IMG/VR virus record: IMGVR_UViG_3300008267_000009
Span: 36,564-100,563 of that record
Length of the DNA: 64,000 nucleotides
From: a virus
Direction: 5' to 3' (one strand)
Position numbers and translations under genes: made by a program. The notes below the pieces were generated by a model. It saw only the letters and a list, made by a program, of their open reading frames with translations. It did not search any database and was not told the DNA's origin. Below are positions 4,701-59,826 of this stretch, piece after piece (the first letter of the stretch is position 1; the number at the start of each line of letters is the position of its first letter).

Positions 4701-7700
4701 ATCTCCAAACTGGGGAGATGAGGCTAGATTTAGAGCTATAATGAATAATGCTAGCGCACTAGTGCCTCTTGGCGTAGATCCGTCAGATGCAATTGCTATG
4801 GCAACAGCGGACGTAGATACTGCTTTAAGAAATTCTTTTAGAAAAGATTTACGTGGCGGGCAAGGTGAGATTGATAGAAGATTATTTAAAGAGCAAGCAA
4901 GAAAAGTAACTCAAGCTAGACACAGATATATTAAACAAAAATATGGAAGATCATTGCTTACAAAAAATGCTGGCGGTCTGCAGGCTTTGTCTGCAAAACA
5001 AGCAAATCAAGATTCTGTAAAACTTTTAAGATTACTAGAAGCATCAGATCCAAAAATGGCGGCAAGGGTTTTCCCTAGATTATTCCCAGACGTAGACCCT
5101 TCTAAAATTAGACTATCAGATTTAACAAGTAGAAATCTTTTTGAATCAGAACACGTTTCTCCAAAAGACAAGTCTGGCTTTAGAAACTGGGGATATAATG
5201 CTGCAGGTAATTATATGCAGGCAATTGCTGGCGAGTCTAATATTAATAGATTGCACAACACTCTTGGAAATAGAGGCCTTGTTCCAAATGCCGTGCCGTT
5301 AACAACATCATCTGCAGAATCAGTGCAGAAACAAATGAGAGCTAAGCGTGGAAATATATCTTATCCAAAAGCAGTTTCAATGTCTCCTTCTAGAAGTACC
5401 AGAATTGCTAAAGCAATAATTGGTGCATCTTCAAGAAGAAGATTATTTAGTATGGCTTCTGCTGGCGGAATGAATAAGGGCGGAATGGTTTATGCAAACA
5501 AGGGAGGAATAATACCTTCATTAAGATCTGGATTTAGCGAGGGACGTGCTGGAAAATCTGGAGGAGAGCCTTCCGAAATGGGAGGAATGGGACAATTTGG
5601 TTTAGGTATGGGCTTGCAAATGGCTGGCATGTATACTGGAGGAAGCCTTGGAACTGGAATGATGGCTTCAGGAACTGCTCTTCAAATGTTGCCTATGTTA
5701 CAAATGCTAAAGCCAGCAATGGGACAATTAAAAAATATTACTGGGGCAGTAAGTTTATTTGGAAGAATTGCTGGATCAGCGTTTAGAATAGCTGGAGCAG
5801 CAGTAAAATTCTTTACTGGCCCTGTTGGACTAGCAATAATTGCAGTAGGTGGTTTAGTTGCAGCATATAAATTAATTAAAAAAGAAATAGCAGAACAAAG
5901 AAGAGAAACAGCTTTGTTAAATGGAATAACAAAAGAAGGCGCAAAAGAAGCTGGAATATCTTATGAAACAATGACAGAAAAGCTAAAGCGTGTTAACGCT
6001 GAACTAAAGCTTCAAAGAGAAAAAGGATTGCTTGCCTATGAAGCAACAACAAATTCTGGAGTATCTGGATTAACATTAACAATTGCAGAGTTAAAAAAGC
6101 TTAAAGAAACTGCAAAAGAAACTATGCCTACGCTGTATGCAACATTTAATAACATTGATTCTTCTAAGGTAAATGATTTAGCTGCTAACCTAAAAGCACA
6201 ATTTGTTGCAGGCGGAATGAGTGCACAAGACGCTACAAATAAAATTTATGCATTAATTGAGGCATCTAATAAGGCTGGTCAAGGATTTAATGCAATAGCT
6301 CAAAAGGGTTTTCAGCAAATTGTAGATAAAGGGTCTGCAGCATCCTTTACTATAGAAACATTAAAGGGAAATATTTTAGATTTTGAAAAAGGAATTAGAG
6401 ACGTAGATTCTGCAGCTTTCTCTGGCAATGTTGATTCAGTTATTAATTCTTTAGAAGGAGCAGTAAATGCTTTAGTTGGAACAAGAGATGCTAGTGGGCA
6501 AAAAATAACAGAAGCTCAAGCATTAGTTATGCAATACGAAAAGCTTAATACTCTAGGGGTAAAAAATCTTCAAATTGGAGAAACCGCTCTAAATAATTTA
6601 AAGAAAGAAAATCCTTTGCTAGCAAGCATATTAAAGTCAACGGATACTGTTGGAGGAATGTGGGCAAAGGTAAGATTACAGACTGCTGGAGTTAATGTTA
6701 ATTTAAAAAACATGAGCTCTGAACTAGCAATATCTCTTTCTCTTTACCAAGATGCTTTAGAGCAAGCAGGCGATCAAATAGAATCTGGAGAAGTTGTTTC
6801 AGATGCATTAGGAAAAGCAGCAGCGGGATCCAAAAAACTTGGCGAAGAAATTAAAAAGAATTCTGATATTCTTAAAAAGGCAGAAGATGCTCAAATAGGA
6901 ATGGATAGGGCAGCTATTAAAAGAATTAATGACAAGATTGCTGCAATAAGAAAAGAGGCAGATGCAAAAAAGAAAGCAATGTCAGATGCCCTTGAATCAG
7001 AAAATACAGAATTAGAGTTACAAAAACTTCAATTAGAAGCACAGGCTCAACTAGCTCGTGGAGACAGAGATGGTTATGCACAGACACAGCTTGCTATTAA
7101 ACAATTGGTAAATGAAACCCAAGCTAAAAAGGCTATGCAAAAAGTTGATGAACTTGCTCAAAAAGAAGAAGACAAGTGGAGAAAGAAGCTAGATGACGAT
7201 CAAGAAAAGAAAGATAGACAAGGTGATAAGGTTGATGCTGCAAATAAAGGAAACAATAGAGCGGTAGAGACAAAAGCCAAGGTAGACGAGTACCTTGCAA
7301 AGCTTACAGCTCTTGCACAAAGAATGTCTAATGCTCAAAGATTAAAAGATCCAACAAGAAGAAAAGAATCTGTAGATGCTGTAACTGGAGAAAAAAATCT
7401 TTTAATTGAAAATCTTGGCAAAGAGTCTAAAGAAGTAAGAGAATTTTTTAGCAATTATGTTGACCCTTCAACTGGTAAAAAATTAAAGGGTGTTGCTAAG
7501 TGGGGTGGCGGAGCAGATTCTGAATTTAATAAGCTTGTTCAAGAAATGGAAAAACAGGCTGGCACCAACTATGACAAGATGGTTAAAGACCTTGGTGGGG
7601 GTTCAACTTTAAATGACGTTGTAAGAGCAATGGGTGGTAAAGCTCCAGTAACAAGAAACATTACAGCCGATAATTTAAGTTCTATTTTAAAGGGTTCAGA

Positions 7701-24888: not shown

Positions 24889-25560
24889 ATGAGTATAGTA
24901 AAGGGTCTAAAAGACCTAAACAAGGCATTGGACAAGCCTACTTATAGCGGTGGAGAAGACAATAAAGGTCGCTGGCTAAAGATTGAAGATGGAGAAAGCG
25001 TAAAGATTCGCTTTTTGCAAGAGTTGGATCCAGACTCACCAACATACAACGATAAGCTAGGTTGTGGATTTATTGCGTTAGAGCATACTAATCCAAAAGA
25101 CTATCGTCGTAAAGCATTAGATACAATGGAAACAGAAGGTCGTGATTGGGCTAACGAGCAACATCGTAAAGACCCAAAGGCTGGTTGGAAAGCTAGAACA
25201 CGTTTATATATTAACGTATTGGTGGATGACGGTAAGGAAGAGCCATACGTAGCAATTCTTTCACAAGGTACAAGCGGTAAAACAATTACGCCAACGCTAA
25301 TTGAATATGCTGGTGAAATGGGAAGCATTTCAAACCTAATGTGGCGCATTAAGCGCTCAGGCTCAAAAACAGATACAAGTTATACAATCATTCCTTTAGC
25401 TAAGGATGAGACTCCTTTCGACTCATCTGGGCTAACATTGTATGACTTAGAAAAAACTGCGGTTCGTCATGTTCCATATGCGGAACAAGAAGCATTCTAT
25501 ATGGGCGAATCTCAGGATAAAGAAGAAGCCTCTTCAACAAGCAACAATTTGGAGTGGTAA
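24889..25560 (+). CDS. Single-stranded DNA-binding protein (gp32-like)
   Basis: 223 residues. The start MSIVKGLKDLNKAL followed by GRWLKIEDGESVKIRFLQEL is typical of phage ssDNA-binding proteins annotated in actinophages. The centre is rich in basic and aromatic residues, and the C-terminus is an acidic/Ser tail ending NNLEW, as used for partner recruitment. It has its own promoter and terminator and mixed but AAG-biased lysine codons, consistent with high expression. Confidence 0.75.
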   Translation: MSIVKGLKDLNKALDKPTYSGGEDNKGRWLKIEDGESVKIRFLQELDPDSPTYNDKLGCGFIALEHTNPKDYRRKALDTMETEGRDWANEQHRKDPKAGWKARTRLYINVLVDDGKEEPYVAILSQGTSGKTITPTLIEYAGEMGSISNLMWRIKRSGSKTDTSYTIIPLAKDETPFDSSGLTLYDLEKTAVRHVPYAEQEAFYMGESQDKEEASSTSNNLEW

Positions 25561-25567
25561 TTATATA

Positions 25568-25599
25568 CAATGAGGCCAGTCTATTGACTGGCCTCATTG
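25568..25599 (+). terminator. 14-bp hairpin terminator after SSB gene
   Basis: CAATGAGGCCAGTC (25568-25581), loop TATT, GACTGGCCTCATTG (25586-25599): a perfect stem with no strong T-run behind it. The next promoter's -35 box (TTGACT) lies in its loop and right arm. Confidence 0.75.
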
Positions 25600-25612
25600 C
25601 ATATAGTAGAAT
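25584..25612 (+). promoter_or_regulatory. Leaderless promoter inside the SSB terminator
   Basis: TTGACT (25584-25589), 17 nt, TAGAAT (25607-25612), then 6 nt to the ATG at 25619 with no Shine-Dalgarno site. Confidence 0.75.
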
Positions 25613-45189: not shown

Positions 45190-46146
45190 ATGGACATATT
45201 TCCAGTTACCGAAACTACTTTTTGTATGAGGTTTCCTAATATGCAATACACTTCTTACGCAATGAAGCAGAGTGAGTATCCATTGATTCCAAAGTTAGAC
45301 GTTGAGCCAAATTTAAATAGAGACATACTTGTTCTTCCCTATGTTGAAAAATATTTTCATACATTTTTTGAGTATATTCCTAAAATTTTATTTTTAAAAA
45401 ATATTAATCCAGCAGTCTTAGTTATATTTGTGTGTTCTGAAAAAACACAGTATGATGAGGATACGAATCTTTTTCATTCTTGGAAAAATATTGGTAATCA
45501 TAGAGAAGATCATTTTAAAGATTTTTTAGATAGATCTCAAATTAGTTATGTTTGCACCTATAAAGACTCTGATTTTTTTAAAAATATGATTGCTCGTTCT
45601 GGATATGTATTTTATGATTCAATAAAAAAGATTCATATGAAAAGATGGATGAATGATTTTTATAAATTTCCAAGCTCGATATCTTATTTTCCAACCTGTT
45701 CTCAGACTACAGATACGCTTTTACCAATGGTAAAATATTTAAAGGGCATCAACAATGACAATATAGAATCTTTTAGGTCTATATATATATCTAGAAGAAA
45801 TTTTCCAGAAAGAACTTTAGATAATGAAAAGCAACTAGAACAATTTATGCTAGATAGTGGGTATGAAGTATATTGTTTTGAAGATATGAATATTTTTGAT
45901 CAAATAAGGTTAGCAAAAGAATCAAAAAGAATTATTATTTTGAATGGTTCGTCTGCTGCTAATTGCGTATTATCAAATCCAGGAACAGAAGTTATTGCTT
46001 TTAATAATGGCGCTGAAATTGTAGGGGTTTACGAAAATGCATGTAAAATGTATAATATAGATTATAAATTAATAGAGATGCCAAATAACGATGCATTATG
46101 GATTATTGATTATTTAAAACAAAATAATTTAAACAAGCCTTTGTAG
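45190..46146 (+). CDS. Glycosyltransferase family 61-like protein B
   Basis: 318 residues with RSIYISRRNFPERTLDNE, EDMNIFDQIRLAKES, GSSAANCVLSNPGTE in the same order as its upstream neighbour, so a shorter GT61 relative. Its stop TAG (46144-46146) lies inside the tRNA-Arg gene, overlapping it by 10 nt. Confidence 0.7.
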   Translation: MDIFPVTETTFCMRFPNMQYTSYAMKQSEYPLIPKLDVEPNLNRDILVLPYVEKYFHTFFEYIPKILFLKNINPAVLVIFVCSEKTQYDEDTNLFHSWKNIGNHREDHFKDFLDRSQISYVCTYKDSDFFKNMIARSGYVFYDSIKKIHMKRWMNDFYKFPSSISYFPTCSQTTDTLLPMVKYLKGINNDNIESFRSIYISRRNFPERTLDNEKQLEQFMLDSGYEVYCFEDMNIFDQIRLAKESKRIIILNGSSAANCVLSNPGTEVIAFNNGAEIVGVYENACKMYNIDYKLIEMPNNDALWIIDYLKQNNLNKPL

Positions 46147-46209
46147 CTCAGAGGACAGAGCAGGACTCTTCTAAGGTCTTGGTCGCAGGTTCGACTCCTG
46201 CCAAAGGCG
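46137..46209 (+). tRNA. tRNA-Arg (anticodon TCT)
   Basis: 73 nt without encoded CCA. Acceptor GCCTTTG (46137-46143) pairs with CAAAGGC (46202-46208), D stem GCTC/GAGC, anticodon stem GGACT/GGTCT with loop CTTCTAA giving TCT, T arm GCAGG-TTCGACT-CCTGC. It reads AGA, the dominant arginine codon in this phage. Its 5' end overlaps the last 10 bases of the upstream gene. Confidence 0.9.
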
Positions 46210-46213
46210 CAAT

Positions 46214-46286
46214 TGGGGATTAGCTCAGCAGGCAGAGCGGGAAGCTGTTAACTTCTAGGTCATAGGTTCGAATCCTATATCCCCAG
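46214..46286 (+). tRNA. tRNA-Asn (anticodon GTT)
   Basis: 73 nt. Acceptor TGGGGAT (46214-46220) pairs with ATCCCCA (46279-46285), D stem GCTC/GAGC, anticodon stem GGAAG/CTTCT with loop CTGTTAA giving GTT, T arm ATAGG-TTCGAAT-CCTAT. Asparagine is very frequent in these proteins. Confidence 0.92.
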
Positions 46287-46306
46287 CAAACATTATCAAA
46301 TAAATT

Positions 46307-49497: not shown

Positions 49498-49920
49498 ATG
49501 GTAACAACATTTGCATGGGACCTTTTTAAGGACCCATTTTTTATTGGGTTTGATAGAGCCCTAGATACATGGAATCATGTACAAACAGTATCTGGATCTA
49601 CAAATTACCCACCATATAACGTAATCAAGGTAGATGAAGACAACTTTGTTGTCGAACTAGCTGTTGCTGGATTTTCTAAGTCAGACATTGAAATTTCAAC
49701 AGCAGATGGAAAACTCATTGTAAAGGGAGAAACAGAAGCGGAGAATAACGATTCGAAGTTTATTCACCGTGGTATTGCTGCTCGTAAATTTACTCGTGAG
49801 TGGGCGCTTGGCGAACATATGGAAGTCAAGACGGCTGAACTTAAGGACGGAATGCTAAAGATTGATATTGAACGCATTCTTCCAGAAGAAAAAAAGCCAA
49901 AGACAATTAAAATCAAGTAA
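49498..49920 (+). CDS. Small heat shock protein (Hsp20/alpha-crystallin)
   Basis: 140 residues. The crystallin domain covers about 35-135: YNVIKVDEDNFVVELAVAGFSKSDIEIS, GKLIVKGE, a central RKFTREWALGEHMEVKTAELKDGMLKIDIE, and a short basic tail (KKPKTIKIK). It keeps unfolded proteins from aggregating; phage Hsp20 may help host or virion protein folding. AAG lysine bias and a strong leader suggest high expression. Confidence 0.9.
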   Translation: MVTTFAWDLFKDPFFIGFDRALDTWNHVQTVSGSTNYPPYNVIKVDEDNFVVELAVAGFSKSDIEISTADGKLIVKGETEAENNDSKFIHRGIAARKFTREWALGEHMEVKTAELKDGMLKIDIERILPEEKKPKTIKIK

Positions 49921-49922
49921 GG

Positions 49923-49928
49923 TATAAT
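49923..49928 (+). promoter_or_regulatory. -10 box of FmdB-family gene leader
   Basis: GGTATAAT immediately after the hsp20 stop; the predicted start is near 49934, at the base of the first leader hairpin. No clear -35. Confidence 0.55.
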
Positions 49929-49931
49929 AGA

Positions 49932-50029
49932 AGTCTGCACCCCGTCACTGGGGAGTCGCAGACTATTCGGGTCGCTACCCGAAGGATACACCTGAGCATG
50001 TGTATAAACTGCTCCTTAATTTTAAGGAG
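49932..50029 (+). promoter_or_regulatory. Structured 5' leader RNA with sequestered Shine-Dalgarno
   Basis: Four consecutive hairpins: A, AGTCTGC 49932-49938 with GCAGACT 49958-49964, enclosing CCCC/GGGG (49940-49943/49950-49953); B, TTCGGGT 49966-49972 with ACCCGAA 49977-49983; C, ATACAC 49986-49991 with GTGTAT 50000-50005; D, CTCCTTAA 50012-50019 with TTAAGGAG 50022-50029. Hairpin D contains the Shine-Dalgarno of the next gene (AAGGAG 50024-50029, nine bases before ATG 50039). Candidate riboregulator; no known class recognised. Confidence 0.7.
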
Positions 50030-50038
50030 AGTGAAGTA

Positions 50039-50224
50039 ATGCCCATTTATGAATACAAATGTGAGTGTTCACCAGAAAAAATTGTATCAAAAGAAAGATC
50101 AATAACATCTATTGAGCCTAACTATCTTTGTACAAGTTGTGGTAAAAGACTACAAAGACATTACGGATCCTTTGGAATACAGTTTAAAGGTACAGGATTT
50201 TATAAAACAGATAACGTTAAGTGA
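50039..50224 (+). CDS. FmdB-family zinc-ribbon protein
   Basis: 61 residues from ATG 50039; the GTG at 50000 lies within hairpin C and would precede the Shine-Dalgarno site. MPIYEYKCEC...CTSCGKRLQRHYG, then FKGTGFYKTD, match the FmdB regulatory protein family (CxxC pairs at 9-12 region and 33-36 region). Possibly a small regulator or zinc-binding factor. Confidence 0.85.
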   Translation: MPIYEYKCECSPEKIVSKERSITSIEPNYLCTSCGKRLQRHYGSFGIQFKGTGFYKTDNVK

Positions 50225-58556: not shown

Positions 58557-59615
58557 ATGAAGTCATTTAAGAAGATCGCTCTTGCAATGGTTGCAGCCGT
58601 TGCTATGGGTACACTCGCAACACCTGCAAGTGCTGCGCCAATGGTTGTAACTTCTGTTAAGAAGAACACTGGCACAGTGGCATCGCCGACATGGACAGCA
58701 CAGACTGCTGGAACATCGGCAACATCACCAATTACAATTCCAGTACCAACAGATAACTCTGTTGACTCACTAGATGTAGTTGAATTTGTAGTAACAGTTG
58801 ATACAGGAACAGCAGTAAATGTTTCTGCAACTAATGCAGTAGTAGTTTCAGCATTTGCAACTTCTACAGCACCAGTAACAGCATCTTCAGGTTCAGCAAC
58901 ATGGAGCCTAAATGTTGGTACAGGAACAACAGCAACGTTTTATGTATATACTAAAACGACAGCAGTAAGCTCTGTAGCAATTACAAATCAGGGCACAACT
59001 GTAACATATTTCCTACAAGGAACATCTACTCTAATCGATAAGATTGCCGTAACTGGTGTAGATTCTGCTCCAGCAGGAACATCTGTAACAGTAACAGCAA
59101 CAGCACAGGACGTATTCGGAAATAAGATTTCTGGAAAGACTCTTAATGCAATTGCAAATGGTGCAACTCTTGATACAGTAACAGTAACAACAGGAGCAAC
59201 ACTAACAAACTTTGGATCAGCAGACGTTAAGTTTGTTGCCCCAGCAACAGGTCCAGTAACAATTGTATTCTATGCTGCAGCAGCAGACATGGCAGCAGCG
59301 GTTACAGGATTCAGCACACCTTCTGCATCATCTGTAAAGATTATTGCAGTTCGTGATTTGGCTGGAGATCTAGCAGCACTTACAACACAACTTGCAGCAG
59401 CAAATGCTGCTAAGTTAGCAGCAGAGGCATCTCTAGCAGCAGAGAGAACAGCACTTGCATCAGCAAAGGCAGAACTTGATGCTCTAAAGGCTAAGGCTAT
59501 TGTTGATAAGGCAGCAGCAGATCTTGCTAAGGCTACATACGTCAAGGAATACAACGCCCTTGCTAAAAAGTGGAACGCTAAGTTCCCTAAGCTTAAGGTA
59601 ACACTTAAGAAGTAA
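58557..59615 (+). CDS. Abundant secreted Ig-like/coiled-coil surface protein
   Basis: 352 residues. Signal peptide 1-27 ends in ASA-AP. The middle (about 30-260) consists of Thr/Val-rich beta repeats, with an invasin/Big-like segment (VTATAQDVFGNKISGKTLNA). Residues 267-352 form an Ala-rich coiled coil and a basic C-terminus (FPKLKVTLKK). AAGGAG precedes the ATG. Almost all Lys codons are AAG, a sign of very high expression. It resembles actinobacterial surface-layer or cell-wall proteins and may have been taken from a host. Confidence 0.65.
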   Translation: MKSFKKIALAMVAAVAMGTLATPASAAPMVVTSVKKNTGTVASPTWTAQTAGTSATSPITIPVPTDNSVDSLDVVEFVVTVDTGTAVNVSATNAVVVSAFATSTAPVTASSGSATWSLNVGTGTTATFYVYTKTTAVSSVAITNQGTTVTYFLQGTSTLIDKIAVTGVDSAPAGTSVTVTATAQDVFGNKISGKTLNAIANGATLDTVTVTTGATLTNFGSADVKFVAPATGPVTIVFYAAAADMAAAVTGFSTPSASSVKIIAVRDLAGDLAALTTQLAAANAAKLAAEASLAAERTALASAKAELDALKAKAIVDKAAADLAKATYVKEYNALAKKWNAKFPKLKVTLKK

Positions 59616-59618
59616 TTT

Positions 59619-59655
59619 AATATGTGGGGCAGGATAACTTCTTGCCCCACATATT
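59619..59655 (+). terminator. Strong hairpin terminator after surface protein gene
   Basis: 15-bp stem (59619-59633 with 59641-59655) around ATAACTT, containing GTGGGGC/GCCCCAC. The right arm carries the -35 of the next promoter. Confidence 0.85.
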
Positions 59656-59670
59656 TATAAATGATACAAT
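59642..59670 (+). promoter_or_regulatory. Leaderless promoter overlapping terminator
   Basis: TTGCCC (59642-59647) in the 3' arm of the terminator, 17 nt, TACAAT (59665-59670), 6 nt to ATG 59677. Confidence 0.75.
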
Positions 59671-59676
59671 AAACTT

Positions 59677-59826
59677 ATGGAACCCAGTGTATATGAACTA
59701 GAAAATTATTTTAAAGAAAAATATACAAAGCAAATATTAAAAGAAATAAAAGACTTTGAATTACCAGAGCACTGGAATCCAAAACAAGTAATAGACTATA
59801 TTACTTATAAACTAGATCGGAAATAA
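59677..59826 (+). CDS. 49-residue helical protein, paralogue of 60027-60176
   Basis: Leaderless gene. Sequence ends LPEHWNPKQVIDYITYKL, which aligns with IPPSWSPDFTLRYIINYI in the protein two genes on; both are short and helical. Function unknown. Confidence 0.65.
   Translation: MEPSVYELENYFKEKYTKQILKEIKDFELPEHWNPKQVIDYITYKLDRK

Follow-up and report, generated by a model that had tools for sequence, protein, structure and literature searches.

The window analysed here is a stretch of 64,000 nucleotides from a virus record of 100,563 bases, and the region of interest lies on its plus strand, where an hsp20 gene is followed by a promoter, a structured leader and a gene encoding an FmdB-like zinc-ribbon protein. 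The features of this region are as follows:

49498-49920, plus strand: hsp20 gene (Pfam HSP20, PF00011, 8.8e-21)
49900-49928, plus strand: sigma-70-type promoter, AAGACA-17-TATAAT, a 10/12 match and the best site of the region
49932-49964, plus strand: hairpin A, the 5' module (CUGCACCCCGUCACUGGGGAGUCGCAG), conserved, with helices 93-99% paired
49966-49983, plus strand: hairpin B, variable in sequence, with UA/GC/AU exchanges
49987-50014, plus strand: H-type pseudoknot, with S1 formed by 49987-49991 and 50000-50004, S2 by 49994-49998 and 50010-50014, L1 reading CU and L3 ending in AAAC
50012-50029, plus strand: hairpin D (CUCCUUAAUUUUAAGGAG), predicted to be stable in the window phage, competing with S2 and unconserved
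50024-50029, plus strand: Shine-Dalgarno sequence AAGGAG of the FmdB-like gene, read from the sequence and kept in position in the leaders
50039-50224, plus strand: FmdB-like zinc-ribbon gene, 61 amino acids (PHROG FmdB-like, 3.5e-4, for the identical homologue in L001)

The Pfam match to HSP20 confirms a sequence-only reading of this DNA that had placed the leader after hsp20, and the FmdB-like protein additionally matches Pfam Zn_ribbon_8 at 5.7e-5, which is below the family cut-off. That reading had also described a structured leader behind a -10 box. The leader (49923-50041) has a predicted minimum free energy of -42.3 kcal/mol compared to a mean of -26.9 kcal/mol for shuffled sequences (z -4.85; none of 200 shuffles equalled it), and the -10 box (TATAAT, 49923-49928) is preceded at 17 nt by a -35 element (AAGACA, 49900-49905) that lies inside the coding end of hsp20. 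The description of the leader as more structured than any other was slightly overstated, since it ranks fourth by GC-adjusted folding energy on the plus strand of the window; two stretches near gene ends (25491-25609 and 59571-59689) fold better after this adjustment. Four consecutive, perfect-arm hairpins had been proposed. Their coordinates hold, including those of the third (hairpin C, 49986-50005), but hairpin A is not perfect-armed because its internal loop is asymmetric, and the hairpins are not independent: GAGCA in the loop of hairpin C (49994-49998) pairs with UGCUC downstream (50010-50014), forming S2 of a pseudoknot. Because the UGCUC strand begins the 5' arm of hairpin D, S2 and the outer pairs of hairpin D are mutually exclusive. 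The pseudoknot lies 66 nt past the hsp20 stop codon, within the 5' leader, and is the single copy in the virus record that contains the window.

Homologous leaders were gathered by a search with the FmdB-like protein and with two DNA patterns, and 49 distinct ones were aligned. These have in common a TATAAT box (49 of 49, the leaders having been gathered partly by that box), an almost unchanging hairpin A, and module C in last position; hairpin B differs from leader to leader or is absent. Covariation is seen in hairpins A and B and in the stem of C: 93.8% of alignment cells are paired compared to 88.9% after shuffling, both sides have changed in 77 cells compared to 34.7, and the covariation score of 0.182 (shuffled, 0.096) was reached by none of 500 shuffles and is abolished when pairing partners are slid. 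A compensatory exchange of C-G to U-A occurs in two rows in hairpin A, and in hairpin B one pair has changed on both sides in 26 rows. The proposal of a conserved, structured RNA transcribed from a promoter of its own is thus borne out by the fold, the leader covariation and the promoter match. S1 of the pseudoknot also covaries within this alignment, and S2 varies there on one side only (C-G/U-G). Hairpin B is missing in L052, and in other leaders a second pseudoknot-like element replaces or follows it. This element (GUCGGGGGAGACAGCGAC..UAAAYAACUGG), located between hairpin A and the pseudoknot (for example in the 602-720 region of L004), is present in about 34 leader copies representing eight distinct sequences with S1 exchanges, and is possibly a further class that shares the UAAAY spacer.

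Most of 106 leaders are preceded by an hsp20-like C-terminus (PKTIKIK and variants), and in most the TATAAT box lies 0-5 nt 3' of the hsp20 stop codon. The downstream gene is more diverse; about 75 leaders precede a phrog_452 endonuclease-type protein and about 22 an FmdB-like protein. The usual partner of a window-type (module-A) leader is therefore hsp20 upstream, with FmdB downstream in a minority. In a cluster of 22 elements elsewhere, an Hsp20-family gene is followed directly by the pseudoknot without an intervening promoter. The simplest reading is that the leader is the 3' untranslated region of hsp20, which also yields an RNA of about 80 nt ending in the pseudoknot, with read-through to the next gene. 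The small RNA from its own promoter that was the second alternative of the sequence-only reading fits the promoter-driven RNAs described below, which end in the same pseudoknot.

A scan of viral contigs with the pattern ACCTGAGNANGTNNNTAAACTGCTC returned at least 120 matches in unrelated contexts. Since S2 varies in the leaders only between C-G and U-G, it was tested outside of them. In an independent bacterial genome scan that left S1 almost free, 118 places were recovered; S1 of at least 3 bp was present in 90 of these 118 chromosomal places compared to about 5% expected by chance, and the distribution was bimodal. In two further scans, S2 was required to carry a non-canonical base at position 2 or 3 while the partner base was unconstrained. 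The free partner was complementary in 112 of 113 cases in one scan (G-C 107, G-U 4, C-G 1) and in 93 of 94 in the other (A-U 78, U-A 9, C-G 6), and S2 position 4 was almost always a pyrimidine. Two crossing helices, S1 and S2, thus each show compensatory change in sets that were selected without them, which establishes an H-type pseudoknot, and the RNA family is very secure. Its consensus is NNNNC-CU-GRNYA-N-GNNNN-(N)WAAAC-UGNYC, where S1 is NNNNC/GNNNN, L1 is CU, S2 is GRNYA/UGNYC, and L3 ends in AAAC. At least 579 non-redundant copies were collected, with up to 8 per locus, and 577 of 579 have the C-G closing pair; no conserved bases were found outside the knot among the 579 copies. In the window and the further loci scanned, no Rfam 15 family reached its gathering score over the pseudoknot, and overlap was limited to a 2-nt edge at most, with hammerhead (RF00008) and DUF2800 RNA (RF02960) as neighbours; at E<=10, nothing credible matched the leader. 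A description of the pseudoknot was not found in the openly searchable literature; subscription papers and supplements were outside reach, so a prior description is possible and the family is regarded as new provisionally.

Most copies are carried by phages, and the hosts are many. Cultured carriers (including Lactobacillus phage KC5a, Roseobacter phage SIO1, and Arthrobacter phage Amigo) infect Lactobacillus, Bacillus, Arthrobacter, Synechococcus, and bacteria of the Roseobacter group, and crAss-like phages also carry the element. Variants that depart from the strict consensus occur in Staphylococcus, Streptococcus, and Sinorhizobium phages, in Bacillus phage Page, and in enterobacterial Chaseviridae, whose hosts are E. 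coli, Erwinia, and Pectobacterium, with a mismatched S1 in the E. coli Chaseviridae. In the Chaseviridae loci L435, L436, and L444 (hosts E. coli, Pectobacterium, and Erwinia), the S1-mismatched element lies in a stretch of 0.5-1.5 kb that has no annotated genes, where further noncoding RNAs may be encoded. Chromosomal copies are rare, a search of about 1,700 genomes of six classes giving a single match apart from those in the genomes chosen as centres. Loci of Aminicenantes and others (L320, L321, L325, L345, L375, and L379) show the fold in use on chromosomes instead of in phages; they have a conserved open reading frame of about 20 codons (MKRYLIPRVAHCKEGC..S-stop type) whose UGA falls inside the CUGAG of the pseudoknot, followed in several by an intrinsic terminator.

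The copies are placed in a consistent manner relative to genes. A total of 498 of 579 are intergenic, and flanking genes are sense on both sides in 379 cases and antisense on both sides in 9. Most copies lie within operons, where the next start codon is 20-50 nt downstream. The CUG follows the upstream stop codon at a distance (n=273) that has a sharp minimum at 8-9 nt (<8 nt, 1 copy; 8 nt, 6; 9 nt, 49; 10 nt, 35; then a decay) and is typically 9-13 nt. Stop codons 9-16 nt upstream (n=167) are UAA in 112, UAG in 42, and UGA in 13 cases and occur in all three frames. What follows the knot is a tRNA, a type III hammerhead, a U-rich tract, or the next gene. Neighbouring genes named by PHROG are diverse and point to no single pathway. 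Downstream genes include those for an endonuclease, FmdB-like protein, scaffold, tape measure, and PhoH; scaffold and capsid genes follow the element in phages of Lactobacillus, Staphylococcus, Streptococcus, and Bacillus. U-richness is confined to the first 10 nt downstream (runs of five T in 15% of cases, compared to 1.4% further on) and is weaker ahead of tRNAs. TATAAT boxes occur 0-30 nt downstream in about 48 cases. Nothing lies in sense downstream in L633, L499, L551, and L433, where genes converge, or in L320 and L332, where a terminator follows. Sixteen placements were called divergent, as expected of pure 5' leaders. Upon inspection, some were window-type leaders with a mis-called antisense open reading frame, one was a promoter-driven small RNA, and others had a sense stop codon or small open reading frame shortly upstream. 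Among the copies inspected, no clear 5' leader was found that lacked both a stop codon and a structured RNA module immediately upstream.

In 19 cases the knot is followed at 3-11 nt by a tRNA, never in antisense; in all 14 of these that have an upstream gene call, the knot is within 12 nt of that gene's stop codon, and the order DUF932 gene, pseudoknot, tRNA recurs in many phages. The window itself has tandem tRNA-Arg(UCU) and tRNA-Asn(GUU) genes (46137-46287) at the end of a coding gene with no pseudoknot between. Type III hammerheads start 0-2 nt downstream of the knot in six loci (L333, L416, L427, L451, L201, and L389). Their three stems and core were checked by eye, and five of the six were called by eye alone; that of L451 was also matched by the Rfam model (E 0.0019). 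As read by eye, the putative cleavage site (NUH) lies 6-8 nt past the knot, so that cleavage would leave the knot on the upstream fragment. Upstream of the knot at comparable spacing, four hammerhead pattern matches were found, none of them convincing. In L333, a hammerhead above the Rfam threshold (7541-7595, minus strand) lies about 190 nt upstream, besides the one directly behind the knot. DUF2800 RNA starts 2 nt downstream in L346, L369, and L406, with a degenerate S1 in L346. Further loci (L216, L227, L275, L294, L299, L309, and L311) encode promoter-driven RNAs of about 100 nt with the conserved core UUCCGUCAUGAUACAUGCAGUUGC..GCAAC..UUGCUGAGUACGGA that end in the pseudoknot immediately ahead of the next promoter; six of these were searched against Rfam and none had a match.

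This placement, which is consistent with a 3'-end role, leads us to propose tentatively that the pseudoknot could be a general exonuclease-resistant end of phage RNAs. The knot would be positioned just behind a stop codon and, once RNase P, a hammerhead, or a U-tract had formed the end, would remain as the 3' terminus of the upstream RNA, where it would resist 3'-to-5' exonucleases. In the window, it would end both the hsp20 mRNA and the RNA of about 80 nt from the promoter at 49923, and the FmdB-like gene would be transcribed by read-through past it. A 3'-end element is favoured because RNase P acting at a tRNA (3-11 nt) and hammerhead cleavage (6-8 nt) would detach the knot from the downstream RNA, because some loci have nothing in sense downstream, because promoter-driven RNAs (L216, L227, L275, L294, L299, and L309) end in the knot before the next promoter, and because the clear opposite case of a pure 5' leader was not found. 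Variants in phages of hosts without RNase J (E. coli Chaseviridae) also speak for it. Counting against it are the position of the window copy in a 5' leader well past the hsp20 stop codon, the location of most copies inside operons with a start codon close behind, the identification of all but one of the hammerheads by eye rather than by Rfam, and the copies that precede scaffold and capsid genes, for which a block to exonucleases arriving from the 5' side is at least as good an explanation.

Such a roadblock, in which the knot would stop 5'-to-3' exonucleases such as RNase J and shield the RNA behind it, is rather unlikely. RNase J occurs in many of the hosts, the scaffold and capsid genes of four phage groups are preceded by the element, and its outline resembles that of coremin (GUCCGAAGACGUUAAACUAC) in having a small hairpin, a GA-containing loop, and a UUAAAC spacer; however, cutting by RNase P or by a hammerhead downstream would separate the knot from the RNA to be protected, some loci have nothing in sense downstream, and variants also occur where the host (E. 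coli, Erwinia, or Pectobacterium) has no RNase J. The sharp minimum distance from the stop codon would also suit a barrier that keeps read-through or scanning ribosomes out of the next cistron, tRNA, or ribozyme, and coremin-type knots do block scanning ribosomes (PMC10520033). This is quite unlikely, as no translated region immediately precedes window-type or promoter-driven small RNAs and the Shine-Dalgarno sequence of the next gene is often directly behind the knot. A role of the knot in stimulating readthrough or frameshifting was rejected given the lack of any pattern in stop codon or frame, and neither a leaky stop codon nor a slippery site with an open frame beyond was found.

A pseudoknot-type transcription terminator or attenuator would explain why the U-rich tract is limited to the 10 nt behind the knot and why TATAAT boxes follow in about 48 cases, but it seems unlikely when tRNAs, hammerheads, and Shine-Dalgarno sequences lie within a few nucleotides downstream in many cases, five consecutive Ts are present in only 15%, and separate hairpin terminators follow in Aminicenantes. 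That the knot itself cleaves as a ribozyme, or is cut by an endonuclease to divide transcripts, is suggested by the company of hammerheads, DUF2800 RNA, and tRNAs; it is highly improbable considering that no base outside the knot is conserved and that a second cleaving device directly behind a self-cleaving one would be redundant. Control of the FmdB-like gene in cis by a riboswitch, thermosensor, or protein operator acting through a Shine-Dalgarno-sequestering hairpin D, as the sequence-only reading had put forward, likewise has very little probability. Hairpin D and the AAGGAG within it exist as described, its predicted energy is -8.3 kcal/mol in the window phage, and since it is stable there and excludes S2, a two-state switch is possible in that phage. 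The hairpin is not conserved, however: across the 49 homologous leaders 81.4% of its cells are paired compared to 81.8% in shuffled alignments, with one double change, so that the surrounding sequence is kept without pairing beyond that expected from composition, and in relatives the predicted energy comes close to zero (0.0 kcal/mol in L084). No conserved alternative pairing of the Shine-Dalgarno sequence was found in these leaders, the gene behind the leader differs among loci with no tie to a single gene or pathway, and the pseudoknot module occurs at hundreds of sites that have no FmdB gene, some of them immediately ahead of tRNAs and ribozymes.

This 28-nt fold covaries very strongly, has at least 579 copies with far more to be expected, and is absent from Rfam 15; it looks like a standard component of phage transcripts that had gone unrecognised. 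If the proposed 3'-end role is true, it would represent an exoribonuclease-resistant RNA class of DNA phages that is spread across phages of many bacterial phyla. Protection of RNA ends would show how individual cistrons of a phage operon are given their own stability and why a coding gene is directly followed by a tRNA or hammerhead in some phages; the knot could then also serve as a very compact device for making bacterial mRNAs more stable.

Several known systems share parts of this description. Pseudoknots that stimulate frameshifting (luteovirus type) or readthrough (MuLV type) are H-type, have a short L1 and an A-rich L3, and stand at a preferred distance behind the ribosomal event. The phage family resembles them in all of these respects and differs in its mostly UAA stop codons, its occurrence in all three frames, and the absence of signs of recoding. 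REP sequences and terminator hairpins are 3'-stabilising hairpin elements located behind stop codons or between cistrons; the phage element is likewise a structured RNA in these positions, but it is a pseudoknot with a conserved core and is found mostly in phages. The type III hammerhead and DUF2800 RNA are neighbours directly behind the knot and are distinct from it. The pseudoknot in the gene 32 leader of phages T4 and T2, an H-type fold in a phage mRNA like the one described here, binds gp32, which thereby regulates its own synthesis, and lies 67 nt upstream of a single start codon (PMC3014915), whereas the present family is found beside unrelated genes as well as tRNAs and ribozymes. Coremin (xrRNAC) of plant and fungal RNA viruses, a motif that resists Xrn1 in plant viruses, comprises two hairpins, the second of which is needed, and a spacer containing UUAAAC, and its small first stem carries a GA-containing loop with the consensus YGAD/YGNNAD (PMC10520033). 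It is the nearest system in outline, sharing the small stem, the GA-containing loop, the UUAAAC spacer, and a location in viral untranslated or intergenic regions. The phage pseudoknot departs from it in two definitional points, having an 8-nt loop (CUGAGYAN) and no general second hairpin, which it does not require; its fold is defined instead by a covarying 5-bp helix between the loop and the downstream strand, its S1 is free in sequence, and its genomes are those of DNA phages.
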